The notes under the pieces: model-generated
Seen by the model: the letters and a program-made list of their open reading frames with translations, nothing else
Database searches by the model: none
What the model was told of the DNA's origin: nothing
Shown here: piece by piece, positions 1 through 34,000 of the stretch
Numbering within the stretch: position 1 is the first letter of the stretch
How the letters are laid out: each line of letters begins with the position of its first letter
Source: Pomacea canaliculata
Taxonomy: Eukaryota > Mollusca > Gastropoda > Architaenioglossa > Ampullariidae
DNA length: 64,000 nucleotides
Assembly (NCBI RefSeq): GCF_003073045.1
Contig: NC_037593.1
Coordinates: forward strand, 15,818,735 to 15,882,734
Direction of reading: 5' to 3'
Program-made: the position numbers and the translations under genes

Positions 1-220
1 GTGTGCACAAGCGAACTTAAACATGAACTTAAGCTTAAGTTGGCTGACTCAACTTTAAGTACAGTAACTCGGTGTGCACAAGACAACTCAAGTCCTCTAA
101 GTACAAAATTTCTTACTCAACTTTAAGACTGCCCTCCCCCAGGTATAAACCCTTACTTAACTGAGTCGGGCGACTTAAGTTAGCACAATTCTGATTTCTT
201 CGTGTGAAGAGTGACAGAAG

Positions 221-6645: not shown

Positions 6646-6652
6646 GTGAGTC

Positions 6653-7552: not shown

Positions 7553-7652
7553 NNNNNNNNNNNNNNNNNNNNNNNNNNNNNNNNNNNNNNNNNNNNNNNN
7601 NNNNNNNNNNNNNNNNNNNNNNNNNNNNNNNNNNNNNNNNNNNNNNNNNNNN
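7553..7652. other. Assembly gap (100 N)
   Basis: Exactly 100 N, the usual placeholder for a gap of unknown size. Left of it is the middle of a Harbinger-like element and right of it is the middle of exon 1 of the next gene. At least about 2 kb of transposon, the catalytic exon of copy B and the promoter of copy C are therefore missing. Confidence 0.98.
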
Positions 7653-10727: not shown

Positions 10728-11054
10728 AGAGCGAATGTCCGGTAGCATTTAGAAGCAGGGGAGGTAATGAGCATGTGAATATAATGGGAGCTGACTCTGC
10801 CGTTCTTGGAAAGTTAAAGTAATTTTATTTTTTTAGTATTCAATACTTTGTCGTTCAAATAGAGAGAGATGGAGTAGCCAGGAGAAAGAGTGTTCATTAG
10901 GTATGGTGTTTTTGCTTTGTTTTGTTTCTAAGATATTTTTCGTAGTGGAGTTTACAAAAATAATATAGCAACCTTACTTGGAAGAAATCTGCGAGATTTC
11001 ATTTTGAGCAAGAAAGGAGATGAAGTGAGTTGGGGTAGTAGATCTTGTATTGTG

Positions 11055-11190
11055 TCGTGTATGACGTCTTGTGTGCGTCATTTGTTCCACGTCACTTGAA
11101 GCAGAAAAAGACGTCATACATAAGGAAAGCAATAGGACTTAAATGACCAAGTTGGCGGGAACAAGCAGCGGTCTTTTCCCTCCATCTTCT
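11055..11190 (+). promoter_or_regulatory. Putative promoter of copy D
   Basis: Contains TGACGTC at 11062-11068 and GACGTCA at 11110-11116 (CRE-like half-palindromes), then the E2F-like inverted repeat at 11154-11183. One arm has lost its match (TTTTCCCTCC in place of TTTTCCCGCC), and with it the YY1-like CCGCCATCTT. The centre is in the same orientation as copy F (AGCAGCGGTC). Confidence 0.5.
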
Positions 11191-11316
11191 TTATGACTCT
11201 CAGTGACATTCGTATGAGTTTGTGCCTCTTCGATTCGATTCATTTCCAAATTTCTTCATCCTCATCGTCATCTGCCGGGGCTCGTTCTGTTGTTGTGTGT
11301 GCAATACGTCGTGCGT

Positions 11317-11564
11317 ATGAAAGGTAAGTGTACATTCGTCTTAATACAGTGCTGTCAGTCTAAACGATTGTTTCCAATATCATTTGCTAACGACCAGTCT
11401 TCTGCGCCTCGAGACAAAGTGCAGACAATATCGCTCACAGATGTAGCAAGGATGGAGAGAGAGAGACAGGCTGACATGAGAGATAAGGAATAAATCTCGC
11501 TTTATCAGTTTATAGAATGTTCAACCCGCGTGTTGCAGATAGTCCGCTGTTCACACGTGTGTGA
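11317..11564 (+). promoter_or_regulatory. Predicted 10-codon upstream ORF spanning intron 1 of copy D
   Basis: Exon 1 ends ATGAAAG at 11323 before a GTAAGT donor. Joined to exon 2 at 11539 (after TGTTGCAG) it reads MKDSPLFTRV then TGA, ending before the main start at 11603. The same peptide is predicted in copies E and F. Whether it is translated is unknown; such short upstream frames often dampen translation of the main frame. Confidence 0.35.
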
Positions 11565-11602
11565 TAACAACCTGTTTTCTTGTGGACTTAAGGACTGAAG
11601 TC

Positions 11603-13146
11603 ATGAGAGGAATGCTAAAGTTCTTAGGTAAGCTGTTGCTCTCTCTTGAATAAATGTGACTCATGTGTTTTGATCCCTTTTGTCTCATTTAGGTTGTGCG
11701 AAAAAGTATTTACTCTAGTGACAGTGCCAATGTCTGCACAATTTTACGTGGTCTTTTCTGGCGCTTAAATCAAATTCAAATCAAACTTTATTGTGTGTCC
11801 AAAGAAGTCCAAGACAAATTTTCCTTTTGCTTAAAAGCCCAATCACGTATACAAATGATGATGATGATGTTGATGATGATTGATGATTGATGATGGAATG
11901 ATTGATGATTGATAATTGATAATTGATGATGATCATGATGATTTTACATTGACTTGCAGCATTGCTGCTCAGCATTGTCTTCCTCATTCTGGTTTACGAG
12001 CTGTTTATCATGGACAAGGTGAGTCCTGACTTTTTACCTTTTCAGTTCCTAAGCCAAAGAATAAACTGGAGAAAATCACCGGTTGTGTCCCCTGAAACAA
12101 ACGTGTCTCTGCCGACGGTAAACTTCTTTCTGGACAACACCACGCTCTTTGCGACGCTTAACGTTGTCCCGCACAACAACTTCAACATCCTGACTGCACT
12201 GACCAGTACATCGTCGTCCACCGGTCATCCTGTCACAACTCCTACTAAAGGTCACGTGTCGCACAGCTCCTACACCTTCCCAGGTGGCACAAATAAAACT
12301 GGAGTCACTGTACCGTCGGACCCGCTCATCGCAACCAAAGTGTTGTGTATCAGTTTCAAAGGCCGACTAGGAAACCAACTCTTTCAGTACGCATCCGTTT
12401 TGGGCATAGCTCTAAAGACGAAGCGGATACCTGTTTATTTGGGGAAGACTCTTCTGTCGGATGTGTTAAGAAACACTTCACTGATTGACACTTCTTCTCG
12501 CTACGCAGATCGGTGTAAGAACTTCTTTCTGAAGGAAGAAGGTAGTTGTAAGTTTTTCCCGAAGTATTTCGAGCTGGACTCTAAGAGAGATTACAGGATC
12601 GGAGAGTATCTTCAGTCCTGGCGATATTTCGCCCAGCACGAAGCGGAAGTACGTCACGCGTTGACGTTCAAGGACACGATTGTGTCCCAAGCTCATCAAA
12701 CGGTCGACTATCTAAGAAAGAAATTCAATCGGACGCTGACAGGTATCCATGTACGCAGAGGAGACTATCTAAGGTATTCAGATGGTAGATACAAGACAGC
12801 ACCTGTAGAATACCTGTTGCATGCCATGGACTACGTCCGAAAAAGATTCCGTGACGTCGTTTTTGTCGTTTCTTCGGATGACCTCGAATGGTGTAGTCAG
12901 CAGTTTGCCAACAAAATTGACGTCACATTGCTGCAGCATCAGTCATCGCCTGCCGTTGTCATGATGATTCTTGCGTCACTGGATCACATGATCATGACGG
13001 TGGGGACCTACGGGTGGTGGGCGAGTTTTTTGAACCCCGGGATTACCGTCTACTATCGAGACTTTGTTAATCCGGGTAAATATCTATCACGCTATAACCC
13101 AAACGGAACGGACCACTACCGTCCGGACTGGATTTCCTTGTCCTGA
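11603..13146 (+). CDS. GT11 galactoside alpha-1,2-fucosyltransferase, copy D, intact
   Basis: Two coding exons (11603-11627 and 11960-13146) give 403 residues. The start lies in a short exon ending TTAG|GTAAGC and joins in phase 1 to TTGCAG|CATTG. Residues 1-8 form a short cytoplasmic tail, about 9-26 a membrane anchor, and 27-130 a Ser/Thr/Pro-rich stem with N-glycosylation sequons. The catalytic domain runs to the C-terminus: GRLGNQLFQYAS at 143, HVRRGDYL at 272 (GDP-fucose binding in GT11), SSDD at 313 and TVGTYGWWASFLNPG at 355. The family moves fucose from GDP-fucose to the 2-OH of galactose in the Golgi. Human FUT2 is about 343 residues; the extra length here is stem. An Asp conserved in the sister copies and in human FUT2 (SPAKDF) is Val at residue 342, which may impair activity. 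Confidence 0.9.
11766..11940 (+). repeat. LINE-tail remnant and (GAT)n run in intron 2 of copy D
   Basis: CAAATTCAAATCAAACTTTA and following bases match the intron-2 repeat of the other copies. They are followed by GATGATGATGATG, TGATGATTGAT and TGATAATTGAT units ending about 20 bp before the splice acceptor at 11959. Confidence 0.6.
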
Positions 13147-15100
13147 CTTTAATCAGTTGCCCACAGCGTTTAAAGGTTCACTGACAATAATATTAATATT
13201 TTTATATTATTACTGTTATATCATTATTATCTTTATTTAATACTATCGTCTTGAGTCTCGCATAGTAACACTACAAAGTCTTAACGGGGGCAGAAATGTG
13301 CCCCTTACCTGCTAAGTTTTAAATTAACCCATATGAAGACATTTGTTCTAAGTATGTACTGTGAACACCCATGTAAATAAAACATAAACAAATAATCATT
13401 TCAGTCTCATTGTTAAAAATATTTTAGGAGAATGCAGCAAAATGTCTTATATTTTTTTTCTGTACATATTTTCAATTTTGTTGTGGTTTAATTGCTGATA
13501 GACTACTTTTTAAAAAAATGGCATAGCGCTCTTCAAAAATTTAACTTAGTTTTACTTTTCCGTTTTCTTTGCCTAAAGATACGTGATAATTAAATCATTA
13601 CTAACAATTTCTCATTTTTTTTCTTAGAACTCTTTTCATGTAAGTGTACCTCAAACCACAATATCCCTAGTCAGCTCAGAAACGTATGTCTTTTGTCTTT
13701 GTAACCTCTAGTACAAACTTCAAAGTTTCTTTACTCGTAAGAGATAAAGAGAACTAGACTACCCTATATACCAACCTTGCTGGCTCAAGCTTCAAGGAGG
13801 AAGGAAAGATATTTAAAAAATAATCAAGGACCACTGATTTACAACTATTGTTTATGCGGGGAATCTTTTTTCTTCTGCCAAGAGCTAAGTTGTCTAAGTC
13901 AACCGATATTTATTTCTTCATTTGCATATCAGTGGACTTCAAAGTGAGTCAGAGATATTTGGTCAATCTGTAGTTTATACACAGAGTGTTAACACTTTTA
14001 TAATCTATACACACTCCCACCCTTGAAGTTTGGCAAACATTTGAATGTGTTGAATCTACTTGCTGGATTGGCCCTGCTTCTCTTCCGACGCTTTGTAAAT
14101 TTATTTTGAGTTTTCAAATACGCATTCGGCACGCAACCCATTGAGCTTAAAAATAAAAAAATGCTTGTACCTATGATATCGGTTCTATGACTGGACCTGT
14201 GACGTGAACAGGAGCATTTGCTGTCTTGATTTCATTTTAAATGAACTGCTAGCGCTGGAAGCAGCTTCTGGTTAAATAACTTTCATCTCAATTGTATTCT
14301 ATGTTTGAGTATCTGTATCTGTCTCTGTGTGTGTGTTTTGTTTCTGTAAAGTACCATGAGCCTGTACAGGTTCACTGTATTTTATTATAGCCAAGAACAT
14401 GATTTACCACCGTCAGTCAAGAGTATAACTTTTTTCAATGCAGCTTTTTTAGACTATGATCGCTAACCTCATCCAACCCAGTCTAAAGCTTCATTTTTAG
14501 TAGTCTAAGATTTTATAAAGCGTTTTGGTTACAGACATGTCATCGCTTACTGCTTCAATATATTCTATTCAGAAGGAAAAACTTGGTAATATGATAAGCC
14601 ATGTCATGCCATCCACTGAATGGTCTAAATGTTTCTCTGTGTGAGGCTTGTACTGCTATTCATACGTATGAATATTTCAACAAATATAAGTAATTTACTC
14701 CGGACTGACGTGTTCGCTTCAATGAATCAAGAGCTGTAATTAACGTATGTCACCTGGTGTATCAATAATTATGTCTGTTGTACATTCTCTCTAGCAAGCT
14801 GTGGTGCAAGATTAAGGACTAACAAAGAAGTCTTCTTTCACACTTAAGGAAAAAGGAGAGGACAGCACAGTATTTACACGCGAGGTTCCGGGTCAACGAA
14901 TGTGTATCAGACCCGCGACACAGTGGACTGTTCAGGTCGCCGGATGCTTGGGGAAAAAGGAGAAATTCTCCCTCAGGGTATTTTTAACCCAAGCCAAGCA
15001 CTCTAACCAGAGATTAATCGGATGGTCACTTTCTTCAGAAGCACCATCCCTACACTAAATACATAAAGGGACGGAAAGTGTTGAGTTCGACTACCAAAGC
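13147..15100 (+). other. Copy D 3' flank, diverged and partly unique
   Basis: No gene seen. Up to about 13850 it aligns with the other 3' flanks, resembling that of copy G most in its first 100 bases. AATAAA lies at 13376. From about 13860 to 15090 it is unlike the flanks of A, C, E and F, which points to replacement of the usual spacer by unrelated sequence. The shared unit resumes near 15100 (GCGAATGTCCGGGTACATTT). Confidence 0.55.
14850..15030 (-). mobile_element. Possible tRNA-derived SINE fragment
   Basis: On the minus strand CTCTGGTTAGAGTGCTTGGC near 15020 resembles a tRNA A box region and is followed by about 170 bp of non-repeated sequence. I find no convincing B box and no duplication at the ends, so this is a weak call. 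Confidence 0.25.
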
Positions 15101-15429
15101 AGTAGCGAATGTCCGGGTACATTTAGAAGCAAGGGGCGTAATGAACATGTAAATATAATGGGAGCTGACTCTGGCGTTCTTAAAAGTTAAAGTTAATTTT
15201 ATTTGTTAGTGTTCAATACTTTGTCGTTTCAAAGAGAGGAGAGATGGAGTAGCCAGGAGAAAGAGTGTTTCATTAGGTGATGGTGTTTTTGCTTTGTTTT
15301 GTTTTTAAGATATTTTTCGTAGTGGAGTTTACAAAAATAATATAGCGACCTCCTTGGAAGAAATCTGCGAGATTTGATTTTTAGCAAGAAAGGAGATGAA
15401 GTGAGTTGGGGTAGTAGATCTTGTATTGT

Positions 15430-15566
15430 ATCGTGTCTGACGTCTTGTGTGCGTCATTTGTTCCACGTCACTTGAAGCAGAAAAAGACGTCATACATAAG
15501 GATAGCAGTGGGACTTAAATGACCAAGTTGGCGGGAAAAGACCGCTGCTTTTTCCCGCCATCTTCT
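15430..15566 (+). promoter_or_regulatory. Putative promoter of copy E
   Basis: TGACGTC at 15438-15444, GACGTCA at 15486-15492, and a perfect-arm inverted repeat at 15530-15559 (GGCGGGAAAA ... TTTTCCCGCC, E2F-like on both strands). Next is CCGCCATCTT at 15555-15564, which fits a YY1 site often found at start sites. The centre of the palindrome is the exact reverse complement of that in copy F. Confidence 0.5.
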
Positions 15567-15974
15567 TTATGACTCTCAGTGACATTCGTATGAGTTTGCG
15601 CCTCTTCGATTCGATTCGTTTCCAAATTTCTTCATCCTCATCGTCATCTGCCGGGGCTCGTTGTGTTGTTGTGTGTGTAATACTTCGTGCGTATGAAAGG
15701 TAAGTGTACATTCGTCTTAATACAGTGCTGTCAGTCTAAACGATTGTTTCCAATATCATTTGCTAACGACCAGACTTCTGCGCCTCTAGAAAAAGTGCAG
15801 ACAATATCGCTCACAGATGTGGCAAGAATGGAGAGACACAGTCTGAAATGAGAGAAAAGGAATAAATCTCGCTTTATCAGTTTATAGAAAGTTCAACCCG
15901 CGTGTTGCAGATAGTCCGCTGTTCACACGTGTGTGATAACAACCTGTTTTCTTGTGGACTTAAGCACTGAAGTC

Positions 15975-17498
15975 ATGACAAGAATGCTAAAGTGTTTAGG
16001 TAAGCTGTTGTTCTCTCTTGAATAAATGTGACTCATGTGTTTTGATCCCTTTTGTCTCATTTAGGTTGTGCGAAAAAGTATTTACACTAGTGACAGTGCC
16101 AATGTCTGCACAATTTTACGTGGTCTTTTCTGGCGCTTAAATCAAATTCAAATCAGACTTTATTGTGTGTCCGAAGAAGTCCAAGACAAATTTTAATTTT
16201 GCTTAAAAGCCCAATCACGTATACAAATGACGATGATGATGTTGATGATGATTGATGATTGATGATGGATTGATTGATGATTGATAATTGATAATTGATG
16301 ATGATCATGATGATTTTACATTGACTTGCAGCATTGCTGCTCAGCATTGTCTTCCTCATTCTGGTTTACGAGATGTTATCATGGACAAGGTGAGTCCTGA
16401 CTTTTACCTTTTCAGTTCTAAGCCAAAGCATAAACTGGAGAAAAATCACCGGTTGTGTCCCCTGAAACAAACGTGTCTCTGCCGACGGTAAACTTCTTTC
16501 TGACAACACTACGGTCTTTGCGACGCTCAACGTTGTCCCGCACAACAACTTCAACATCCTGACTGCACTGACCAGTACATCGTCGTCCACCGGTCATCCT
16601 GTCACGACTCCTACTAAAGGTCGAGTGTCGCACAGCTCCTACACCTCCCCAGGTGGCACAAATACAACTGGAGTCACTGTACCGTCGGACCCGCTCATCG
16701 CAACCAAAGTCTTGTGTATCAGTTTTAGAGGCGGACTAGGAAACCAACTCTTTCAGTACGCATCCCTTTTGGGCATAGCTCTTAAGACGAAGCGGATACC
16801 GGTTTACCTGGGGGAGACTATTCTGTCGGATGTGTTGAGAAACACTTCACTGATTGACGTGTCTTCCCGCTACGCACATCGGTGTAAGGACGTCTTTCTA
16901 ATGGAAGAAGGTTGTTGCAAGTTTTTCACGGAATATTTCGAGCTGAATTCTAGTAGAGATTACAGGATCGGGGAGTATCTTCAGTCCTGGCGATATTTCA
17001 CCGAACACGAAGCGGAAGTACGTCACGCGTTGACGTTCAAGGACACGATTGTGTCCCAAGCTCGTCAAACGGTCGACTCCCTCAGACAGAAATTCAATCG
17101 CACGCTGACAGGTATCCATGTACGCAGAGGAGACTATCTAATAGATAGAAAGACAGCACCTGTAGAATACCTGCTGCACGCCATGGACTACGTCCGAAAA
17201 AGATTCCGTGACGTCGTTTTTGTCGTTTCTTCTGATGACATCGAATGGTGTAGGCAGCAGTTTTCCAACAAAAGTGAAGTCACAGTGCTGCAGCATCAGT
17301 CATCTCCCGCAGTTGACATGATGATTCTTGCGTCACTGGATCACATGATCATGACGGTGGGGACCTACGGCGAGTTTTCTGAACCCCGGGATTACCGTCT
17401 ACTATCGAGACTTTGTTGATCCGGATACAGATCTTGCAACACTCTTCAACCCAAACGGAACGGACTACTACCGTCCGGACTGGATTTCCCTGTTGTGA
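15975..17498 (+). pseudogene. GT11 fucosyltransferase copy E, pseudogene
   Basis: Exon 2 coding part 15975-15999 (MTRMLKCL) and exon 3 from 16332 to a stop at 17496-17498 follow the family layout. In the anchor and stem, single bases are missing near 16372, 16410, 16418 and 16502 and one is gained near 16444. From 16625 to 17370 the frame is open, with GGLGNQLFQYASLLG, HVRRGDYLIDRKTAP and VVSSDDIEWC. At 17370/17371 the 8 bases GTGGTGGG present in every sister are absent. That removes the two tryptophans of TYGWWASF and shifts the frame to an early stop. Loss of this motif would abolish a GT11 active site. No Harbinger insertion. Confidence 0.85.
16140..16312 (+). repeat. LINE-tail remnant and (GAT)n run in intron 2 of copy E
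   Basis: Same pair of repeats as in copy D, with TCAAATTCAAATCAGACTTT at its start and GATGATG/TGATTGATGATTG units before the acceptor. Confidence 0.6.
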
Positions 17499-18628
17499 CT
17501 TTAATGAGAGATTACAACGGTTAACGTTTTACTGACAATTATATTTTATTGTTATACTGTTATTGTTATTTTGTTATTGTTATATTATCTTTAGTCTGTT
17601 CATTTTACACTATCGAGTAAATCACGCATAGTAACACTACAAAGTCCAAAGAGAATCAAAAATAAAATGTGCCCGTAACCTAGTAAGTTTAAAATAAATC
17701 CATTTGAAGACGATTGTTTTGAGTATGTACGCTGAAACATAAAAGATAGTTATTTTAGTCTAATTGTTGAAAATATTTTGAGGAGATGTTAGCAAAATGT
17801 CTTATATTTATTGCCTTTACATTTTTTCTGTTTTTGTGTGGCTAGGTTGCTGATGGACTGCATTAAAAAAGAAATCATATAAGGCTGTCAAATTGAGCTG
17901 AGCTTTTTTCCAGTTTGTTTAGCCTGAAGAGACGTGATATTCAAACTATTTACTAACCTTTTCTATTTGTTTTTTAATTTATATCTTATTTAACGTAAGT
18001 ATACCTCAAAAAACACTTTTCGTAGTCGACCCAGTAACTTACTTCCTTTTTCTCTGAAAACTCCAGTAGAATCGTCCAAGTTCCAAACTAAAAGAGAGAT
18101 AAATAGAACTAGACAATCCTAAAGACCAAATCTGCTGTCATTAAGCTTCACGTAGTGAAGAAAAGATATTTAAAAAAATAATTAAGGACTTCTTTTTAAC
18201 AACTTTTCTTTAATTCATCTCTCAGTTCGGACGACAGCGCTCTGACCACTAGGATATAAAATTTTTTTTTTATATCTTTATCTACATATCACATACTAAG
18301 GGAGGCTAGTCTTGATAACTTGTCGAATGTCAAGCCTTCCTCCCTTTGACACACTTCCTTTTTTTCCCCCCCTTCAAAAAAACGTAGAAAAACCCCAGTA
18401 AAAAAAACATAAGTAAGAAATTTTTTCCAAACATAATTACATTTAAAATTTGCTAAAAAAATTGTAAAAAAAAATTGTTTGTCTCCGCATGTTCTTTAAA
18501 CTCTTGCATTCTGCCCGAGCACTGTGCATGGTAGGGTAATGGGCCCCAGTGTCAGTCATCAGACTCATACATTCTAATCAAGCATAACGTGTACACACTT
18601 ACAAAGCTCCTACCTTACTACAGGCAAC
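17499..18628 (+). repeat. 3' flank of copy E
   Basis: Gene-free spacer matching 4195-5330 and 25462-26570. The polyadenylation AATAAA is at about 17694; the second signal is altered here. The spacer is interrupted at 18629 by a transposon and resumes at 19916. Confidence 0.65.
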
Positions 18629-19915: not shown

Positions 19916-20249
19916 ACCAAAGCGTAGCGAATGTCCGGGTAGCATTTAGAAGCAGGGACGTAATGAGCATGTGAATATTAATGGGAGCTGACTCTGCCTT
20001 CTTGAAGTTAAAGTTAATTTTATTTGTTAGTATTCAATACTTTGTCGTTTCAAATAGAGGAGAGATGGAGTAGCCAGGAGGAAGAGTGTTTCATTAGGTG
20101 ATGGTGTAGTTGTTTTGTTTTTAAGATATTTTTCGTAGTGGAGATTACCAAAATAATATAACGACCTACTTGGAAGAAATCTGCGAGATTTCATTTTGAG
20201 CAAGAAAGGGGATGAAGTGAGTTGGGGTAGTAGATCTTGTATTGTGTCG

Positions 20250-20382
20250 TGTATGACGTCTTGTGTGCGTCATTTGTTCCACGTCACTTGAAGCAGAAAA
20301 AGACGTCATACATAAGGAAAGCAGTAGGACTTAAATGACCAAGTTGGCGGGAAAAAGCAGCGGTCTTTTCCCGCCATCTTCT
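20250..20382 (+). promoter_or_regulatory. Putative promoter of copy F
   Basis: TGACGTC at 20254-20260, GACGTCA at 20302-20308, perfect-arm E2F-like inverted repeat at 20346-20375 and YY1-like CCGCCATCTT at 20371-20380. This is followed by the shared exon 1, which ends at 20522 with a GTAAGT donor. No TATA box. Confidence 0.5.
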
Positions 20383-20787
20383 TTATGACTCTCAGTGACA
20401 TTCGTATGAGTTTGTGCCTCTTCGATTCGATTCATTTCCAAATTTCTTCATCCTCATCGTCATCTGCCGGGGCTCGTCGAGCGTTGCGTTGTTGTGTGTG
20501 CAATACGTCGTGCGTATGAAAGGTAAGTGTACATTCGTCTTAATACAGTGCTGTCAGTCTAAACGATTGTTTCCAATATCATTTGCTAACGACCAGTCTT
20601 CTGCGCCTGTAGACAAAGTGCAGATGTGGCAAGGATGGAGAGAGAGAGAGACAGGCTGACATGAGAGATAAGGAAGAAATCTCGCTTTATCAGTTTATAG
20701 AATGTTCAACCCGCGTGTTGCAGATAGTCCGCTGTTCACACGTGTGTGATAACAACCTGTTTTCTTGTGGACTTAAGGACTGAAGTA

Positions 20788-23700
20788 ATGACAAGAATTC
20801 GAAAGTGTTTAGGTGAGCTGTTGTTCTCTCTTGAATAAATGTGACTCATGTGTTTTGATCCCTTTTGTCTCATTTAGGTTGTGCGAAAAAGTATTTACAC
20901 TAGTGACAGTGCCAATGTCTGCACAATTTTACGCAGGGTCTTTTCTTTTGCTTAAATCAAATTCAAATCAATTCAAATCAAACTTTATTGTGTGTCCGAA
21001 GAAGTCCAAGACAAATTTTCCTTTTGCTTAAAGTACCAACCACGTATACAAATGATGATGATGAAGTTGATGATGATTGATGATTGATTGATTGATTGAT
21101 GATTGATGATGATGATGATGATTTTACATTTACTTGCAGCATTGTTGTTCTACATTGTCTTCCTCATTCTGGTTAGCGAGCTGTTTGTCATGGACAAGGT
21201 GAGTCCAGGGCTGGTGTGCACAAGCGAACTTAAACATGAACTTAAGCTTCAGCTGGCTGACTTAACAAGTACAGTAACTCGGGCTGGTGTGCACAAGCGA
21301 ACCTAAACATGAACTTAAGCTTAAGTTGGCTGACTCAACTTTAAGTACAGTAACTCGGTGTGCACAAGACAACTCAAGTCTGCTAAGTACAAAATTTCTT
21401 ACTCAACTTTAAGACTGCCCTCCCCCTGGTATAAACCCTTACTTAGCCGAGTCGGGTGACTTAAGTGAGCACATTTCTGATTTCTTCGCGTGAAGAGTGA
21501 CAGGAGATGGCAGCGAGACGACTGTGCTTTAGAATGATGATAAGAAGACATTTGATGAGGGAACGTGTGTTTCGTGACAGACACAATCTTTTTGACCTGT
21601 ATGATCCGTGATATAGCCGTCGTTGCTGGCACGGCATAAAACACAAACAATTTGACCTGTATGAACTCTACGCTCGATTCCGCTTTCGGCGAGTCGATAT
21701 CATGTACCTGTGCGATTTAATACAGGACATCGACCACCCTGGCTTTTAAATTTGACCATTTTTTAAAATTTTGGGCCCATTCCCGTTTTTGCTCTCCACG
21801 AGCACTGATGGCAACTGCTATGTCTTTCCACAGCTGATTTTTTTTCTTCGGTCATACATATAACAAAACATAACAAAAACTACCGCACACATCAATTTAC
21901 ATAAATAGAATCAACAAACATATCTCTGACAATCTACACAAATCTTTCCTCGATCTCATCATGCCCTACCCTATGAAAGGACCAGCTGACGCTAGTAACA
22001 GTATAGTTGTAGTGGTTTGTCTTTTAGTTGTAGCCTTACACAAATACCGATAGCTTTCAACATTCATCAATAAATAACACATATTTCAGGCAGTTCGCAC
22101 ATTTCAACTGTACACTGAACTTATACTTATCTATACATTTATGACATTAGCTACATCTGAGGCATAGCTCACCCATATATTATCTTCACTTATACAAATA
22201 CCAAATCAGGGAAGGAAAACATGTCTATTCACAAACATTTTCAAGTAGGTATAGGGTATCCAGACTACGAGGAGACATAAGGGATACATGATTATTTACA
22301 GATACATAACAATATATGTATACATAACTAACAAGCAATATTTTACAATATACCAACATAAAAAACAAACATACACATAAATTAACAAACATTTTAAGAA
22401 TACATCCCCAGAGAAGCCACACAAATAAAGCAATCATCATAGAATGCACCTTGGAGCCCATGTGTCATAGGATGACAGCACAATATTAATGTATATCAAG
22501 ACATATGTAGTTTTTGATAATCAAGATCAGATAAATGTATATAATCAGTATTTAGTTTAGTTAACAAGTTGTTCACAGGATAGCCAGTGTTTAGCAAACT
22601 TTTCTTTGGTTAATTCTAAACATGCATTAATTTTTCAATTGAATATCTGTTTTCAATATTTGGATATAGGGTTCTAACTGGGGGATAACTTTTTTAAATA
22701 TACAAGAATATATGTATGCTTTTGCCAGCAATAAAATTAAATCAAATGGAACATCTGTCTCAAAGTTATTATTGCATCCAAATAAAATCAAATGTTCACT
22801 AAAAGTTATCTTAGGCGCATTTGTACATTTGTCTAATATACCATTTTTGTAAGTTTTTCCAAAAAAAAAATTAACAAATTTACAGCTTCCAAAAAATATG
22901 CTGAATATTTTCTTTATCATCTCTGCAAAGGCTGCTGACATAAATCCTCTTCTAGTCCCATGTGGAATAATATTACTCTTGTCGCCCAGATTTCTATGTA
23001 ACACTCTGATTTGAAGCCGTTTTAATTTAATATCTTTTATATTAGCCATTGCTTTAAATATAACATGCCAATCAACATTTCTATTTATCCTTTTATCCCA
23101 GTTTAAGCAACAGTTTGGTATACATGCGTTAGATAATATTTTATAATAATATGGTCTTGCTCCTTTCTGTATTGTTCGAAATTATTCTTAGAGTTTTGTT
23201 TGTGTCATATGTAGAAGGAGATAAATCTGTTTTATTCCTTCTATTTAAGTTTAGTATGTTTTTATGGCCTTTAATGCAACCATTAAAAGAGACAAAGTCA
23301 ATGTTAACATCATATTTATTTTTAACAGCTTGATATGATAGAAAGTTTCCTCTTTCATTTGTCAAGTGTTTGAGTATACATCTTTCTCCACCCATCTTCT
23401 ATATAGAATTGGCTTATTCCCAATTGTTATTCTATCGTTACGAAAGATAGGTTCTGACAAAATTTCATGTTTATCACACACTATATTCTCTCCAAAAATC
23501 CTGTATGCTTTTAGTATATCATCCGCCATAAGCTTTTTGCATTAATATAGTGGCAAACTGCAGGGCCCAGTTTGTCCAAATAACCTATTATTTTATGTGT
23601 AGACAGAAGATTTTTTTTCCAGCTGTGGTTACTTTTCTTTATTTTCTGCAGCCATGATAATTTTAACGCATTCATATAAGTTTTAACATCAGGTATGCCC

Positions 23701-25461
23701 ATGCCTCCAGCCTGGATATTTTTCTATTAATTATTATCATTTTTTTCCATTCCATACAAACCTAAAGATAGATTTTCTGTATGTCATTTATAACAAAGTC
23801 TGGAGGGTTAGGTAGTAGTAACCAAAGGTGTACTAGTTTTGATAAAATTAAGGACTTAAGTATTGCTACTCTCCCTAATGGAGTTAATAACTGTCTCTTT
23901 AATCATATTTGTAAAACATTCTTATTTCAGCAAGCTTGCTATCGTAGTTTAATTTGCGTATACAGTCTTTTACGTAGGTCTTTTTTTTTTTTTTTTTTTT
24001 TTTTTTTGATAATTGTTTCCATTTTTTCAGGCAAATACCTCAATCTCAAAAGATAGTATCGTGGTTGAAAAGACTGAACAAGACCAAACATAAAAGCGTA
24101 ACACACGAACAAAGCGATTGTTGATTGGCTGTTTGTCTATAAATAGCCAGTGACGAGAGAGAATTCCCGGGCAATTCCGAAAAGGACGAGAGGTCACTGT
24201 CTTGACCCATTTCTTAACTAAGCAAGCAGCTGAGTCCGCTCATGCACACCGATGTGAATTCTCGCCAGCAACGAACTCAGCTGAGTAAAGTTTGCGGTTA
24301 AGTCAGAAAACTTAAGTAAGAAATTTAAGTTCGCTTATGCACATCAGTCCTGGCTTTTTCCCATTTCAGTTCCTAAGCAAAAAAATAAACTGGAGAAAAT
24401 CATCGGTTGTGTCCTCTGAAACAAACGCTTCTCTGCCGACGGTAAACTCCTTGCTGGACAACACCACGGTCTTTGCGACGCTCAACGTTGTCCCGCACAA
24501 CAACTTCGACATCCTGACTGCACTGACCAGTACATCGTCGTCCACCGGTCATCCTGTCACAACTCCTACTAACGGTCACGTGTCGCACAGCTCCTACACC
24601 TCCCCACGTGGCACAAATACAACAGGAGTCACTGTATCGTCGGACCCGCTCATCGCAACCAAAGTCTTGTGTATCAGTTTTATAGGCCGACTAGGAAACC
24701 AACTCTTTCAGTACGCATCCGTTTTGGGCATAGCTCTTAGGACGAAGCGGATACCGGTTTACCTGGGGGAGACTTTTCTGTCGGATGTGTTGAGAAACAC
24801 TTCACTGATTGACGCGTCTTCCCGCTACGCACATCGGTGTGAGGACGTCTTTCTAATGGAAGAAGGTTGTTGTAAGTTTTTCACGGAATATTTCGAGCTG
24901 AATTCTAGTAGAGATTACAGGATCGGGGAGTATCTTCAGTCCTGGCGATATTTCACCGAACACGAAGCGGAAGTACGTCACGCGTTGACGTTCAAGGACA
25001 CGATTGTGTCCCAAGCTCAACAAACGGTCGACTCCCTAAGACAGAAATTCAATCGCACGCTGACAGGTATCCATGTACGCAGAGGAGACTATCTAATAGA
25101 TAGAAAGACAGCACCTGTAGAATACCTGCTGCATGCCATGGACTACGTCCGAAAAAGATTCCGTGAAGTCGTTTTTGTCGTTTCTTCTGATGACCTCGAA
25201 TGGTGTAGTCAGCAGTTAGCTAACGAAAGTGACGTCACATTGCTGCAGCATCAGTCATCGCCTGCAGTTGACATGATGATTCTTGCGTCACTGGATCACA
25301 TGATCATGACGGTGGGGACCTACGGGTGGTGGGCGAGTTTTCTGAACCCCGGGATTACCGTCTACTATCGAGACTTTGTTGATCCGGATACAGATCTTGC
25401 AACACTCTTCAACCCAAACGGAACGGACTACTACCGTCCGGACTGGATTTCCTTATCCTGA
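20788..25461 (+). CDS. GT11 alpha-1,2-fucosyltransferase copy F, intact if the transposon is spliced out
   Basis: Proposed coding exons are 20788-20812, 21140-21198 and 24370-25461, giving 391 residues with no internal stop. The first two encode the tail and membrane anchor up to VMDK. GTGAGT at 21199 then serves as donor, and TTTTTCCCATTTCAG ending at 24369 as acceptor; both junctions are in phase 0. The catalytic domain has GRLGNQLFQYAS at about 134, HVRRGDYL at 263, VVSSDDLEWC at about 298 and TVGTYGWWASFLNPG at about 342. The conserved Asp in SSPAVDMM is kept. In copies without the transposon the 27 nt between the same GT and AG are translated (nine residues), so this protein would lack nine stem residues. 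The intact frame over 1.1 kb after the insertion supports continued function. The splicing itself is a prediction. Confidence 0.8.
20945..21120 (+). repeat. LINE-tail remnant and (GAT)n run in intron 2 of copy F
   Basis: TCAAATTCAAATCAATTCAA and TTTATTGTGTGTCCGAAGAA, then GATGATGATGAAG, TGATTGATTGATTG and GATGATGATGATGATG, ending about 20 bp from the acceptor. Confidence 0.6.
21207..24351 (+). mobile_element. PIF/Harbinger-like transposon with nested SINE and LINE, complete ends
   Basis: Left end AGGGCTGGTGTGCACAAGCG; right end read in reverse AGGACTGATGTGCATAAGCG (3 mismatches in 20). The left end is repeated in tandem: GGGCTGGTGTGCACAAGCG again at 21281 and a partial GGTGTGCACAAG at 21357, a period of about 75 bp. 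A HARBI1-like transposase start is at 21507-21740. A SINE tail at 21605-21652 lies between two TGACCTGTATGA copies (21593-21604 and 21653-21664). A minus-strand LINE fragment spans about 22000-23800. A poly-T run of 27 is at 23981-24007. The element lies wholly between a potential splice donor and acceptor in copy F. Confidence 0.8.
22080..23960 (-). mobile_element. L1/Tx1-like LINE fragment nested in the Harbinger-like element
   Basis: Second copy of the fragment at 860-2700. Open pieces include GGGMGIPDV-type sequence near 23700, SYQAVKNKYDVNIDFVSFNG near 23340 and IQILKTDIQL at the end, with KAYIYSCIFKKVIPQLEP before it. Several stops and frameshifts are shared with the first copy, so both descend from one already broken insertion. 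Boundaries are approximate. Confidence 0.6.
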
Positions 25462-26570
25462 CTTTAATCAGAGAATACAACGGTTAACGTTTTACTGACA
25501 ATTATATTTTATTGTTATACTGTTATTGTCATTTTGTTATTGTTATATTATCTTTAGTCTGTTCATTTTACACTATCGAGTAAATCACGCATAGTAACAC
25601 TACAAAGTCCAAACAGAAGCAAAAATCTAAATGTGCCCGAAACCTGGTAAGTTTAAAATAAATCCATTTGAAGACGATTGTTTTGAGTATGTGTGCTGTA
25701 CTAGCGCGTAAATGAAACATAAAAGATAGTTATTTTAATCTAATTGTTGAAAATATTTGAGATGTTAGCAAAATGTCATATTTATTGCCTTTACATTTTT
25801 TCTGTTTTTGTTGCTGATGGACTGCATTAAAAAAGAAATCATATAAGGGTGTCAAATTGAGCTGAGCTTTTTTCCAGTTTGTTTAGCCTGAAGAGACGTG
25901 ATATTCAAACTATTTACTAACCTTTTCTATTTGTTCTATCTTATTTAACGTAAGTATACCTCAAAAAACACTTTTCGTAGTCGACCCAGTAACTTACTTC
26001 TTTTTTCTCTGAAAGCTCCAGTAGAATCGTCAAAGTTCCAAACTAAAAGAGAGATAAATAGAACTAGACAACCCTAAAGACCAAACCTGCTGTCATTAAG
26101 CTTCACGTAGTGAAGAAAAGATATTTAAAAAAATAATTAAGGACCACTTTTTTACAACTTTTAATTCATCTCTCAGTTCGGACGACAGAGCTCTGACCAC
26201 AAGGATAAAAATAAAAATTTATATCTATATCTATATATCACACACTAAGGGAGACTAGTCTTGATAACTTGTCGAATGTCATGCCTGCCTCCCTTTCCTT
26301 TGACACACTTCCTTTTTTTTCCCTTTAAAAAAAACGCAGAAAAATCCCAATAAAAATAATATAAGTAACATTTTTTTTCCAAACATAATTACAGTTAAAA
26401 TTTACTAAAAAATTGTAAAGAAAAATAGTTTGTCTCCGCATGTTCTTTAAACTCTACCCGAGCACTGTGCATGATAGGGTAATGGACCCCAGTGTCAGTC
26501 ATCAGACTCATGCATTCTAATCAAGCATAACGTGTACACGCTTACAAAGCTCCTACCTTACTACAGACAA
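25462..26570 (+). repeat. 3' flank of copy F
   Basis: Gene-free spacer like 4195-5330. AATAAA at about 25666; the second signal reads AATGAA. It contains the CATGCCTGCCTCCC block near 26279. The shared unit ends about 26570, which marks the end of the recent tandem array. Confidence 0.65.
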
Positions 26571-28640
26571 CACTAACGCAAACTGGCTAATATCCGCTCC
26601 TTTCATCTTGAAAGGAAAAGACAAAACAAAACCAAACAAAAACCAAGAACTAAGCAAGATTACTGTGTGAACACACAAAACACAGACATACCTAAAAGAT
26701 CAAATTTCTTCTCCTGTTTCTCCATCAACAAATGTTGAACTGCGCCGTTGGTCCTTGCGAACAAAAAAAAAAAAAAAGCAGGATGCCTGTAGTGTCTGTA
26801 GTACCGCACAATACAAAACAAACTACTTAGCAAGTGTAAATAACTAGAGTTGACCTATTTGTGTAAATGCCATTTTGACTATATTGCATGACTGAATGCT
26901 GGTTTCTCAGCGCCATGTCCCAGACAGGCTATTATCAGTCAAGTGGACTGGTCACACAGACTATTTATTGTCTTCTTGTCACCAAGGGCGACCACTGGCA
27001 GGCAGCGACTAAGGGAAGGTATTCAGCAAATTACCTCGTCTCAATCCTTTGTCCCAGGACCCGGTAGTCCTGGCCGAAAAATAGTTTCGTATCAGGAACA
27101 GGTGCCTTGGTATTGTCAGATCGGAGTTTTCACATATTCTGGCTGGCAAATCAGAAACATAAAAAGAGCAAAGATAAATCTAATCGTCCTATTTTGTTTT
27201 CTTGTGCCTTATCAATGCCTTCCATGTATTTCGATGTGTGAAATGATGGACGGGAAAGGAGATGTGTGCCGGGTGCTCTTGGTGTACACAGCGGGTTCAG
27301 GTCTGATGAGCATATGGAGGACAGGACGCGTCAAGTCTGATGGGATTTGGTGGTGCAGCGACTCTGAAGTTCACTTGTAAAGATGTCAGCAGACCGCAGC
27401 ACAATGACACCGAGCTGGCTGACCTACTGAGGTGAAGACCACGAGGGACATCTCCCCCTTATTTCCCCCGCCCCCTTCTTCATACCCACCAGCTAAATTC
27501 TACCCTCATCCCCCTTTCTCCTGAGTCCTCAGCGGACGACCGTTTGGGATATTTTAGCTTTTATTGTCGTGCCACGTCAATTAAATACTCGTTCGTCACC
27601 CACTCTATTCAGTTTGTTCGAGGTTTTCAATGTTATTCAAACCTTTATGGTCTGCTCGTTCAGAGGCGAACAGAAGATCGAGAAGAAAATGTTTTGGAAT
27701 ACAAAAACCAAGAAAAATGTTTTGGAATTGTTTGTTGTTTATTCATGAGAGAGTATCTGTGAATTTTCCCACGCGTGCAAGTGTTTGTGCGTTTATGTTT
27801 GTGTGAGTGCGCCGCTGCTTGTGGATTCAATACACTACGCATGCGTGAAGGTGTTCAGGACGAGGGGTCAGATTACGAAACGAAATCAGGGTCAAGTACA
27901 ATATGCCACCGACAGGACATTGTAAGATATTGAAGCAAGCGGACATCAACATTAAGAAGATCGTAGTATCACTAGCTTTATATATTGGCAATTCTTGTGC
28001 TTAGTAACTTTGTACTTTGTTTCATGGTCGCACACTTAGCCATTGACCCCCTTCATAATTTGACCCCAGATAGCATCTATTCATTTTCAGTTTTGTATAA
28101 AGATATACAGCTGCTAGTTCATGTTTACGGTATGCTTGATTAAAGATTATCTAAGGGTTTTCTCGTCCAATGATTGGTATAAGGGAATGCAAAATGTTTG
28201 TTGATCTTTCTATGTCTTAAACATGTAAAGCATATCAGAGGACATTTCCTCGACTAAATCGTTTAAAAACTAGTCATTTCATCTTTCATCTTTGCGCGAA
28301 GAGCGAAAGATAGTGTTCGAGTGGACGATGCATCAAGACCTATAATGTCGCCAGCTCCTGGAAGAAAGCTTTGATATATATATATACTTTTCAGATAGAA
28401 CAAAATATCTCCAGATACAGTGATCATCTTTGAAACATTCAACGATGATTCTAAAACAATTCTCTTTCGTGAATATATCCAGTAGATATAGGTCTTTTCA
28501 TCACATGACGGTTATTACTGTAGTTTGTTTTTCAAATTGTGCTTCTGTATTTGCTTTTGAACACACAACACTCTAAGATCTTATTGTGTGTGTGTGTTTA
28601 AACCCGTGAAACGTGACCATGTACAGGGTATATTTTTATG
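26571..28640 (+). other. Unique spacer before copy G, no recognised gene
   Basis: An open frame of 145 codons at 26943-27380 has no domain, signal peptide or family I can name and no sister copy. It may be chance. A short TA run is at 28376-28386. From about 28640 the sequence aligns with intron 1 and exon 2 of the other copies, so copy G's exon 1 should lie upstream, but I could not place it. Confidence 0.4.
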
Positions 28641-28885
28641 CAGGAGTGCCAAACCGGTTTCCAATATCATTTGCACATGACAAGTGCGTCTTTTAAGTCT
28701 TCATGCAAAGTGTAGGAAATATCGCTCACATGTGTGACATTCACTAAGAGACAAGTAACATTAGATAGTACTCCTCACTACCCCGCCTTATCAGGTTCAA
28801 TGTTCAGCCCGGGTGTCGCAAATACACCGCCACGCACACGTGTGTGATAACAACCTGTCTTCGTGAGGACCAAAGGACTAACGGC

Positions 28886-29786
28886 ATGACAAGAACACTA
28901 AAGTGTTTCGGTAAGCTGCTGTTTTCTCTTGTGTGTGTAAATATGTGTGACTCAAATTATTTTTATCTCTTCTTTCTTTCATATCAGGAAACGAACGAAA
29001 CATTTCCACTAGTGACAGTGCCAACGTCTGTATAATTTCTGGCGCTTGTTTCTTGTGCTTCCTCCTAACTCAGGGGTGGGCAAAGTATGGCCCGCGGACA
29101 TCTTTTTCCGGCCAGTCTGATAAAATATGAAGTGCACTTGTTTTTTTTTTTTTTTTAAAGGCTCACTTAATTGAAATTCAATTTATTAAGTACAGTAGCG
29201 TTAGAAATCGACAGTCCGTAACATTCTAACACGAAGTACAAAGATAACAAATAGCACGACTGACATGGCTGATGTAGCCAGAGAGCATCGGGGGTTCTCT
29301 TTACACAATTCGAAAATTGAACGCCATTATGGACTCGTTTGCTGTCCATTCCATTATCACTAGGTTTGTTGTGTATTTACCTGGCCTGGGTTTCTGAAAT
29401 TTACTGGCCCGCCGCATAACTTAAGAATTTTGAGACTGGCCCGCAAAAAGTAAACTTTGCCCACCCCTAACCTAATGTAAGCCCCACTTAAAGAGTTACA
29501 TCCCTTCTCTAACATTTTGTCTCGTGCATAGATCAGATTTTGGTGTCTGCTGTTAATCTGATATTTGTTGTTGTTCCCATTACCTCTATTTTGGATTTTT
29601 CCTCTATGCATGCGTAGCGTAGTCTTTCCTACCTCTAGGCATTCGCGTCCTCTGCAGCACGTTCTTCGGTTCGTCACATTGTCTGCAATGTTTCGCTTTC
29701 ATTGGATGTTTTGTTTATCTTGCGTTTGTATATATAATTATATGTGGCAAATTCGTTACAAAATGCTGGAATGTTGTTTTTTTTCT

Positions 29787-29821
<35 letters not shown>

Positions 29822-31073
29822 ATATTTTCTTGCAGCATTGCTGCTCATCATTGTCTTCCTGATTCTGGTTTGCGAGCTGTTTATCATGGACAAGTTGAGC
29901 CTCAACCTCTTCTCTTTTCAGTTCCTAAGCCCTAGCGAAAACTGGAGACAATCACCGGTTGTCATCCCTGACAGCAATATTTCTTTGCCGACGTCAAATT
30001 CTACGTTGGACACCATCACGTTCTTGGCGACCAACACCTGGGGTGCAAAAAATGAAACTCCGGCAGCGGAACTTACGGCGACGTTTGACGTTGTCCACCA
30101 TAGCAGCTTCCACATCCTGACTGCACTGACCAGTTCATCTTCAACCACCGGTCATCCTGTCACCACTCCTACTAAAGGTCAGGCGTCGCAAAGCTCCTAC
30201 ACCTCCCCACGTGGCATAAATACAACTGGAGTCACTGTACCGTCGGACCAGCTCATCGCAACCAAAGTCTTGTGTATCAGTTTTGTGGGCCGACTAGGAA
30301 ATCAACTCTTCCAGTACGCATCCCTTTTGGGCATAGCTCTTAGGACGAAACGGATACCTGTTTACCTGGGGAAGACTCTTCTGTCGGATGTGTTGAGAAA
30401 CACTTCACTGATTGACACTTCTTCCCGCTACGCAGATCGGTGTAAGGACTTTCTAAAGGAAGCAGATGGTTGTAAGTTTTTCCCGAAGTATTTCGAGCTG
30501 GACTCTAAGAGAGATTACAGGATCGGGGAGTATCTTCAGTCCTGGCGATATTTCACCGAACACGAAGCGGAAGTACGTCACGCGTTGACGTTTACAGACA
30601 CGATTGTGTCTCAGGCTAATCAAACAGTTGACGCCCTCAGACAGAAATTTAATCGCACACTGACAGGCATCCATGTACGCAGAGGGGACTATCTAAGAAA
30701 TCCACGTTCTGGATACAAGGCAGCACCTGTAGAATACCTGTTGCATGCCATGGACTACGTCAGAAAAAGATTCCATGACGTCGTTTTTGTCGTTTCTTCA
30801 GATGACCTCAAATGGTGTAGTCAGCAGTTTGCTAACAAAAGTGACGTCACATTTCTGCAGCGTCAGTCATCGCCTGCAGTTGACATGATGATTCTTGCGT
30901 CACTGGATCACATGATCATGACGGTGGGGACCTACGGGTGGTGGGCGAGTTTTCTGAACCGCGGGATTACTGTCTACTATCGAGACTTTGTTAATCCGGG
31001 TACATTTCTATCAACACGCTTCAACCCAAACGGAACGGACCACTACTGTCCAGACTGGATTTCCTTGTCCTGA
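28886..31073 (+). CDS. GT11 alpha-1,2-fucosyltransferase copy G, intact
   Basis: Coding exons 28886-28910 and 29836-31073 give 420 residues, the longest of the set because of about 17 extra stem residues. The start (MTRTLKCF) and the phase-1 junction match the other copies. Residues about 9-26 form the membrane anchor and 27-147 a Ser/Thr-rich stem with several sequons. The catalytic domain has GRLGNQLFQYAS, HVRRGDYL at 288, VVSSDDLKWC at about 327, SSPAVDMM and MTVGTYGWWASFLNRG near the C-terminus. All positions conserved in the family are present, so this is the best candidate for an active enzyme. At the site of the transposon in copy F, G has TTGAGC in place of GTGAGT, so it lacks that latent donor, while the CTCTTTTCAG end is kept. 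Intron 2 holds a hAT MITE. Confidence 0.92.
29071..29470. mobile_element. hAT-type MITE in intron 2 of copy G
   Basis: Left end CAGGGGTGGGCAAAGTATGG; right end in reverse AGGGGTGGGCAAAGTTTAC. The matched inner terminal repeat is AGGGGTGGGCAAAGT, with GC-rich GGCCCGC motifs next to both ends, as in many hAT MITEs of animals. About 400 bp with no coding sequence. Flanks CCTAACT and CCTAATG could be a decayed 8-bp duplication. A diverged relative sits at 35671. Confidence 0.75.
29789..29818 (+). repeat. (GAT)n microsatellite before exon 3 of copy G
   Basis: Ten uninterrupted GAT units ending about 17 bp before the TTGCAG acceptor. It is in the same place as the interrupted GAT runs of the other copies, but here without the LINE-tail sequence. 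Confidence 0.8.
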
Positions 31074-34000
31074 CTTTAATCAGTTGTCCACAACGGGTAA
31101 CGTTTTACTGACAATAATATTATTTTTTTATATTATTATTGTTGTTGTTTTATTATTATGTTCATTTTAGACTGTCGTCTTGAATCTCACGTAGTAACAT
31201 TACAAACTCTAAACAGAAGCAAATATCAACATAACAACATTTATCCCTAACCTTCACAGTTTAATTAAAATAAATCCTTATGAAGACAATTGTGTTGAGT
31301 ATGTACTGTTTCCTACCATGTAAATAAACAAAACAGATGCTGAAAATATTTTAGGGGATGTCAGTGAAACGTCTTACATTTGTTTTCTGAGCATATTTAC
31401 AGTTTGTTTTTTAATTTGGATAAATTGCTGATGAACAGCTTAAAAAAACTATGCTAAAATCACATAAATCCCTTCAAAAATTAGCTGAGCTTTTCTTTCC
31501 AGTTTTAATTTACCTAAATTTGTGTGATAACTAAATCATTTTCTATCCCTTTCTTATATTTTTAATTAGAACTTATTTTACTGACCACAAACCTCACTTT
31601 TCTGCTTCGTCCTAGTAACTCACCTCTTTTCTCTTCGTAGTATCTATATCTATCAATCATTGAGTAAGGGAGACTAGTCTTGTCGTTGTCGAATGGCATG
31701 CCTTCCTCCCTTTGACATCCGTACCCCCCCCCCCAAAAAAAAAAAAAAAAAAAAACCACAAAAAAAAACAAAAGTAACAATATATATATATTTGAAATCT
31801 GCTCATAATGGTAAAACAGCTTTTATAGGTCTTAGTATGTTCTTTAATGCATCTGATTTAAAATTTAAAAGTGTAAGGAGCACGAGTTGTGACAAAGTGC
31901 AGCGCACCATTTTTCACCAGACATCCTCGAGTGAATACCATGATGTTAATGCACACATATAATTATAACCACAAGGGAAAATTACCTGATGAAGTGTGGA
32001 TCTGCTATAATATCAACATGACTGAGCATAACCATAAGCTGAAATGTTGCAATATTAACATCTTTTTGTGCCACTGATATGAAATTTCAAGCCAACTGGT
32101 ACTCACTCACAAGGGGATACTGTTTCAGTATTTAGAATGTCCCGAAAATGTTTTTAATATTTTAAAATATTTTATGTACACCATCAACATTGCATGGTTT
32201 CAAAACTAAGAAATAGTCATCAGTCTGTCCTTATTCAATGCTATTTATAGTAGTCATCAGATAGTCTTTACTGCATGCTGGTTACATGACGCTGCGAGTA
32301 GTAAGAGGGCAGCATCATGGCTTCAGCCAGTTGGCAGTTCTATTACAGCAGTTTTAGATTACTGTTCCTAAGGATTCATGTAACAGATTAATATACTTTG
32401 GAAATACTACAATAAATAATGACAATTGTTTGTGGAAAAATGGGTTGTGGAATGTATTTGGGAGTAAGAAAAGTGTAACTTTATACAAATGTACATCACT
32501 TTATCATAGGTTCTATGATACAAAACTAGACTAGATTCACAATGGGGTAGACAGCTAGGCAAATGTTTCCTTTAAACAGCATAATCACAACTAAAGAACT
32601 GAGAATAAAGTTTGTCATCTTGAATGTGAATCCATGCTTAAAACACAAAAACCCCAAATGCAAATTCCTATCCCACCCCTGACTCCTCCTCTTCCCCCTA
32701 GGCAATTTAAGCACAAATATTTTACAAAAGTACATAGCAGATCTACATATGACCTGAAGTGAGTTTTCAATCTCATTAAGTTCACCAAAGCAAACAGGGA
32801 TTATTCAAAGAGCCACATGAATGCTTCTAATCAGCAACACAGCTGATGGTAAGGCGATGAGATATGATGATACTGGAGCTGGAGGTTGGCAGCAAAGGGC
32901 AGTTTGGGCCCGCCCTGGCAGTCGGGAGTTTCTGTGAACAATAATTGCTACCTTGACACATGTTTCAGGTGAAACAAATTTTAAGATAATGCCACACACA
33001 TGATATACACATTCCAAACCAAAACTCCTAAATCCCTGTGTACGATACTGTGTATTCTGTAGCATGAAACTTTTTTTAATGGTACGATATAGGAGGAACA
33101 GCAAAAGAAATATAATAAAAATTGTGCCAATAATATTTATGAAATGTGCTATTATTACATCAAAGTAACACCAATATGTCTGATATCTATTGTCATCTTC
33201 TTAAATACAATAAAAAAGAATTTCAATAAAACAAAACAAAAAAAAAAACATCCAAAAAAGTCGTCATTTTTTATGAAAAGTGTGACTTATCCCAACGCTG
33301 AATAAAAACATCTGTTTATGGCTGCCAAGTATGACTAAATAATAAGTTTTAAAAGATCATTTTCTTCTTTCCTAAAAGATTAATGCATGACTTACCAAAC
33401 AATATAATTTTTGAAGAAATGGTGCCCTTGATATTTGTGCTGATGCAATAGTTGTCAATAAAATCATTAGCCTGCACATTTTTCACCTGTCGATGAAAAA
33501 AATCATGAGAGCAATAACCACATTTTCAGAAAAGAAAAATCAAAAGTTCAGGTGCAGGTCACACGAGTTGAAAAGCCAACTGAAGTCATGACAGGGTATA
33601 TAGATAGTTATTGTGGGGGATAAACAAAGAATATAAAAAAGAGCTTCTTCCCTCTTTATTTATTTGTTGGTTTAATTTGGTAGTTGTACCTTGTTTCTCA
33701 GGGAAAAAAAGATAAATTAAATGTAAAAAATAATTTCGTCCAGCATAAAAGATATTAAGGAATCTTATCTTAAGCTCAAGGAAACAAAATACTGATAAGG
33801 ACTTGCACGAGTCCAAACAAAATTATCTAAGTAGCTATACCAGTCATAAGCAAAAAGGACTGCTATCGCAAAGGAGTAATAATCATAAATATTCATAAAG
33901 ACTATTATTTTTAAGAACAATGCAGCCACCATAAAAAAGGAAAACATATTAACTGCTGCCTTACCTTGAGAGTGTACCACTGTTCCCCTGCTTTCAGATT

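Follow-up and report, generated by a model that had tools for sequence, protein, structure and literature searches.

A candidate transposon-made intron on host splice sites in a tandem fucosyltransferase array of Pomacea canaliculata

Results

The window analysed here, a 64,000-nt stretch of Pomacea canaliculata contig NC_037593.1 to which all positions below refer, contains a tandem array of glycosyltransferase family 11 (GT11; PF01531) genes, whose units were lettered A to G in window order. In unit F (19917-26571), coding exon 1 (20788-20812, plus strand) runs from ATG to TTAG, is followed by the GTGAGC donor of intron 1 and joins in phase to coding exon 2 (21140-21198, plus strand), which encodes a hydrophobic anchor and ends with ATG GAC AAG. 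Coding exon 3 (24370-25461, plus strand) encodes the stem and the GT11 catalytic domain and is open to its stop codon. The intervening 3,171 nt (21199-24369, plus strand), occupied mostly by a DNA transposon, form a candidate new intron of phase 0. An earlier sequence-only reading of this DNA had claimed that removal from GT to AG in phase 0 leaves a 391-residue open frame, and joining the three exons bears this out, giving 391 residues and a stop. The best 19-residue hydropathy of the joined protein is 2.71, starting at residue 7, consistent with an N-terminal hydrophobic anchor, and its exon-3 part matches Glyco_transf_11 (PF01531) with an E-value of 1.2e-37 and 130.2 bits (cut-off 23.9). 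By domain, the F product is a member of the GT11 alpha-1,2-fucosyltransferase family, with a predicted linkage specificity. A search of the PDB returned 0 matches.

The element is a NuwaI-like transposon (21209-24349) of 3,141 nt, including a nested insertion. Its terminal inverted repeats at 21209-21235 (plus) and 24323-24349 (minus) match at 23 of 27 positions, and the arms 21205-21234 and 24324-24353 are 90% complementary; the right repeat is also present in unit A. When unit D is taken for the empty site, the flanks of this one insertion event can be read as putative 3-bp CWG target-site copies that differ by one base: CAG on the left (21206-21208, plus; CAG likewise at this place in B), CTG on the right (24350-24352, plus; identical in A, at 3062-3064), and CTG in D. 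As expected for an intron made by a transposon, the corresponding 27-nt stretches of D (12019-12045, plus) and G (29895-29921, plus) are uninterrupted within open frames. The G homologue is coding, begins with TTGAGC and has no donor; most simply, therefore, the stretch was coding in the ancestor. For the same reason we rejected the idea that it is a shrunken ancestral intron. The stretch had been described as read through in frame in D, C and E. This holds for D. The E stretch is 26 nt long and lies among other 1-nt indels, and copy C has a scrambled GTGAGT, so that neither copy is in frame as assembled.

We then considered the splice signals, which were scored against a consensus drawn from general knowledge. 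The F donor, AAG/GTGAGT at 21196-21204, agrees with the consensus at 9/9 positions and is the only site scoring at least 8/9 in 21140-24369. Donors scoring 9/9 account for 9 of the 3,919 GTs on the plus strand of the window, and 4 of these are this same donor in B, D, E and F. At the other end, a host-derived pyrimidine tract and CAG acceptor (24353-24369, plus) has 11 pyrimidines in 14 positions and ends in TTTCAG at 24369. A branch-point-like CTTAT (24334-24338, plus) lies inside the right inverted repeat; its A, at 24337, is 32 nt upstream of the end of the candidate intron. Read unspliced, F stops after 63 residues. Among the eight acceptors tried, only 24369 keeps the frame, while the other seven (six in the element and the CAG at 24347) lead to stops after at most 64 residues. 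A suspected improvement of the pyrimidine tract in the insertion lineage was dropped, as the C at 24360 also occurs in G and F has since gained an A in the tract.

These features would fit a transposon-made intron in F on host splice sites, whose removal would give a functional fucosyltransferase. This is the interpretation that we favour, and as a whole we consider its probability to be evenly balanced. Several features of the segment weigh against it: the element contains acceptors richer in pyrimidines than that at 24369, namely 23651 (13), 23101 (12) and 24030 (12); six polyadenylation-like hexamers lie in 21199-24369; and an F-specific A at 24363, where the other copies have T, breaks the pyrimidine tract. 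The same acceptor-like sites lend some weight to a rival explanation, in which F gives only aberrant products, either by use of an acceptor inside the element or by a transcript that arises from the element and is translated, with no anchor, from an ATG of the right inverted repeat (24337). This ATG is indeed in frame through the stretch into exon 3. Golgi fucosyltransferases, however, require an anchor, and the protein starting at 24337 has no hydrophobic segment comparable to that of the joined protein (best 1.47 versus 2.71), while the alternative acceptors all run into the early stops described above. We regard this explanation as improbable.

To describe the insertion site, a position was counted as bracketed when a donor scoring 8/9 or better preceded it and an in-phase acceptor with 10/14 or more pyrimidines followed it, donor and acceptor being spaced by 15-90 nt and a multiple of three. 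On these thresholds 10 of the 1,187 insertion positions in the D coding exon are bracketed, compared with 0 of 1,238 in G and 0 of 1,092 in F exon 3. The D exon has 47 CWG sites; only one of them (12026) lies inside the bracketed range, and this is the site that the insertion occupied; a second (12043) is the acceptor CAG itself. The choice of site is suggestive of a survivorship of bracketed insertions, but it was the splice signals that had drawn attention to this site before the bracketing and donor counts were taken, which hence yield no clean probability.

The element had been called a Harbinger-like transposon of 3.1 kb. The assignment stands at the level of the superfamily, and most of the 3.1 kb proved to be a second, nested insertion. 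This nested fragment (21850-24020, minus strand, ends approximate), which we label as similar to a long interspersed nuclear element (LINE), consists of minus-strand open pieces and is found in A and F and begun in B. Pfam gave no match for the LINE-like pieces tried, and no convincing target duplication was found for the nested piece. Two short pieces of the element that we presume to be transposase remnants were also tried in Pfam and gave no match, and no DDE transposase of the Nuwa clade was found. A weak, possible Myb/SANT trace is seen in copy A, where a 31-residue piece (474-566, minus) matches PF13873 with an E-value of 0.0017 and 18.7 bits, below the curated cut-off of 21.7. The NuwaI group of the PHIS (PIF/Harbinger-ISL2EU-Spy) superfamily is described as targeting CWG, with a Myb/SANT gene in most autonomous members (PMC4482050). 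Set beside that group, the element shared by F and A resembles NuwaI in its CWG flanks, in an inverted-repeat length within 12-61 bp and in its possible Myb/SANT trace, but differs in that the F element has no DDE domain, in that its inverted repeat starts with GG instead of the usual GGG and in its unequal flank copies, CAG and CTG. Since no DDE part was found, we use the label NuwaI-like and stop short of assigning the element to NuwaI.

The left end of the element (21208-21377) is tandemly duplicated, with a 59-nt repeat at a spacing of 73 nt and a third partial copy at 21357; the duplication is present in B too, and A is truncated by the window start. An 18-nt motif of the element ends (at most 3 mismatches) occurs within the window only in A, B and F, with 9 matches. 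A 45-nt match (89%) to the transposase-like part at 54539-54583 (minus) may be a relic of another copy. A long T run at 23980-24030 of the F element is much shorter in A, and a CAG at 24028-24030 of F corresponds to CCG in A, so that one acceptor-like site exists in F and not in A.

The insertion is not private to F, an idea we rejected because A and B carry it at the same site. Copy A (1-3061) holds the same element up to the right junction, with host exon from 3082, and differs from F by 4.2% substitutions (2,996 aligned sites). Copy B (6646-7552) has the donor at 6646, enters the element at the left junction and follows it for 0.9 kb before a run of 100 N at 7553; it differs from F by 10.1% (871 aligned sites). 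The filled site and the nested LINE-like piece are identical in position in A, B and F, B holding the beginning of the piece. These data strongly argue that the insertion happened once, at CTG, took up the nested piece and then multiplied with its unit in the array. Because A and B hold the same element at these distances from F, the simplest view is that the unit was copied at least twice after the insertion and its nested piece had arrived. The presence of the insertion in three units fits its being tolerated. That F gained the element by a recent conversion with A or B as donor is the less likely course, as divergence near the element is not lower than elsewhere (38/291 versus 94/969 for F and B, 9/111 versus 59/995 for F and A).

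An assembly artefact, in which poor polishing of the array and wrong joins between haplotypes or paralogues produced the element in F or the units A and B, could draw on the 100-N gap at 7553-7652, on the abundance of indels in the adjoining B and C, and on 1-nt indels in A and E, several of which lie in short one-base runs and are possible consensus errors. Against it, each junction recurs in two copies that are 4-10% divergent (the left one in B and F, the right one in A and F), the element ends match, D provides an empty-site counterpart, and B follows A but not F. Such an artefact is very unlikely. As the gap precedes C and both flanking units are rich in indels, sequence errors there are likely; the region around 7553-7652 likely consists of low-quality contig ends, and the frameshifts of B and C are not to be trusted.

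Copy E has no element, and its sequence is D-like around the insertion site and closer to F in the flanks. We used sites with a two-two split among the copies to pair F with E, D, A or B; the scrambled copy C was left out of the exon splits and the codon analyses, and B has no downstream exon. Upstream of 20947, 15 split sites pair F with E (8), B (3) or D (4). From 20947 to 24453, all 16 sites group E with D, and F goes with a copy that bears the insertion, B at 10 sites and A at 6. In the downstream exon, 15 split sites again pair F with E (8), D (4) or A (3, clustered), and in the 3' flank, where D is unusable, 11 sites pair F with E (6) or A (5). The divergence tests, whose tract limits were taken from this split-site analysis, concern a D-like tract of about 0.5 kb across the insertion site of E (16012-16513, plus, ends approximate). 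D and E differ at 8/394 sites in the tract versus 136/1,946 outside (P=5e-5) and E and F at 41/394 versus 100/1,962 (P=1.6e-4), while the difference between D and F does not change significantly (35/398 versus 124/1,958, P=0.08). These patterns suggest that E probably descends from an insertion-bearing unit and lost the element when gene conversion replaced about 0.5 kb with the sequence of a D-type copy. An earlier breakpoint for E, derived from 55 sites at which A equals F and differs from D (24453/24469, 3 misfits), was replaced by the two-two splits, as it had counted D's own changes.

To examine whether the F exon is under constraint, indels and substitutions unique to each copy were compared; P values are uncorrected across several related tests. 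The exon-3 codons that were contiguous in the alignment and used numbered 356/364 with the stop or 355/363 without it, and the stem denotes the shared E-F branch. The intact downstream exon had been taken as a sign of maintained function, and this receives moderate support. F-unique frameshifting indels number 0 in 1,073 exon sites versus 15 in 3,064 non-coding sites (pooled P=0.011), the latter divided among the element (4/784, P=0.03), upstream sequence (7/1,223, P=0.01) and downstream sequence (4/1,057, P=0.06). D shows the same protection (0 in the exon versus 6 in non-coding sequence, P=0.023), which is absent from A (8 versus 11) and E (4 versus 10). The ratio of non-synonymous to synonymous changes (omega) between A and F is 0.51 over 348 codons (P=0.01); for the 261 codons of the catalytic part it is 0.42 (P=0.003). 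For the clade of A, E, F and the stem, omega is 0.50 (236 codons, P=0.013) or 0.66 (355 codons, P=0.069). The synonymous divergence of A and F (0.10) exceeds the 4.2% divergence of their elements; as conversion among units or base composition could cause this excess, the A-F omega can hardly be taken to reflect evolution after the insertion alone.

Other results of the same analysis add to the points against a spliced and functional F. When frameshifts are scaled to the 10 F-unique coding substitutions, the comparison with non-coding sequence is uninformative (Fisher P=0.35), as is that of F alone with A and E (P=0.19); F and D together give P=0.003 against A and E. Of the F-unique changes, 8 are non-synonymous and 2 synonymous. 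Omega on the F branch is 1.10 (236 codons), 1.57 (355), 1.28 (324) and 1.36 (257), overlapping sets of which none falls below 1; it is never significantly different from 1 nor, where tested, from the background (P=0.29, 0.08). Neither do F plus stem (0.81 and 0.72; P=0.66, 0.56) differ from 1, and A, F and stem together give 0.58 and 0.57 (P=0.06, 0.08) and F and E 0.78 (P=0.25). Purifying selection is not measurable on the F branch (1.1-1.6). Finally, copy A, which has both the insertion and the downstream exon, carries 8 frameshifting indels. Six 1-nt indels lie within about 170 nt of its exon 3 (3370-3540), several in short single-base runs, and may reflect either decay or consensus errors.

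Much of this would also be expected if F were a young pseudogene, silenced by the insertion through truncated or decayed transcripts, with an exon 3 that has been open for a short time or is refreshed by conversion with working copies. The F-branch ratios, the broken frame of A despite the shared insertion and the exchange between units visible in E would all agree with this, and zero frameshifts are unremarkable at so few coding substitutions. It accounts less well for the 15 non-coding against 0 exonic frameshifting indels of F and for an insertion at the sole bracketed CWG site of 47. Moreover, E is frame-broken as assembled without the element, so that broken frames do not go with the insertion. 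We consider the pseudogene a possible explanation, though rather more doubtful than plausible. The data are compatible with both a working gene and a young pseudogene.

Discussion

Under the favoured interpretation, a transposon-made intron in a working F gene, the pre-mRNA would be spliced from the host AAG/GTGAGT at 21199 to the host TTTCAG at 24369, with a branch point perhaps supplied by the right inverted repeat of the element. Splicing would remove the element, the target duplication and 27 host nucleotides together, and the product would be a 391-residue type II membrane fucosyltransferase that has lost 9 residues of a variable stem. The insertion may have been tolerated since it fell at one of the few places in the exon that are bracketed in phase by latent splice sites. 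The earlier interpretation, in which latent sites would have saved the gene and supplied a new intron, is upheld in part: an exon with latent sites did receive a transposon whose clean phase-0 removal is possible. The rescue and the new intron themselves are putative, and the F-branch omega of 1.1-1.6 and the broken frame of A speak against a rescue. Tentatively, and at less than even confidence, we suggest that one array contains all the stages of an intron: latent sites (D), a working intron (F), tandem spread (A, B), nested growth, and loss by conversion (E).

Exon insertions of Tc1, Ac/Ds and the P element are spliced out through flanking cryptic sites in C. elegans, maize and Drosophila, respectively. 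There, too, a transposon in an exon is treated as an intron, but those cases are mutant alleles, whereas here the insertion is found in three array units. That introns can be gained by transposon insertion is an established proposal, and a 2012 review lists 35 such gains in Oryza, Drosophila, Oikopleura and Zea and names the activation of nearby latent splice sites, the very mechanism proposed for F (PMC3443670). For F, splicing is predicted from sequence, and the paralogues show empty, filled and probably converted states. Intronization of coding sequence through cryptic sites is likewise a described model (PMC9612004). According to the legend of Fig. 2E in PMC9860276, an introner family of Florenciella carries neither splice site and co-opts both from its insertion site. 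That family resembles the proposed F intron in having DNA-transposon ends, in taking both splice sites from the host and in inserting into coding sequence, but introners are multi-copy families, with median lengths of 30-654 nt in that paper, that make many introns (PMC9860276). The case described here is one 3.1-kb insertion at one site, copied within the window only with its gene, and its removal would cost 9 codons. Among the matches listed in our literature search, no title or abstract opening concerned this locus or a NuwaI-made intron.

If F is spliced, the locus works like the transposon-made introns already described, and its membership among them would rest on RNA evidence. The kind is already known, as introns made by transposons through latent or host splice sites; the value of the locus is the readable history of one site across paralogues, and empty, filled and probably converted-back sites are rarely found together for an intron origin. 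A spliced F would provide an animal case, at a single locus, of an intron whose two splice sites were both present in coding DNA beforehand, and would strengthen the idea that the survival of insertions into exons is decided by latent splice sites. The array further lends itself to testing whether gene conversion can remove an intron-like insertion with no reverse transcription involved.

Other features of the array

The remaining units lie at positions before 1 to 5310 (A), 5322-7552 (B), 7653-10721 (C), 10730-13854 (D), 15094-18627 (E) and 28657-31634 (G), with the 100-N gap (7553-7652) between B and C, whose flanking sequence is rich in indels. The 3' flank of D (13147-13854) is about 25% different from the flanks of A, C, E and F, whose mutual differences are 5-8%, and the downstream region of D seems to have another history. 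Further GT11 relatives are located on the minus strand at 38895-39725, 47296-48122, 51365-52213 and 61464-62275, with protein matches in more than one frame, suggesting that they are broken copies.

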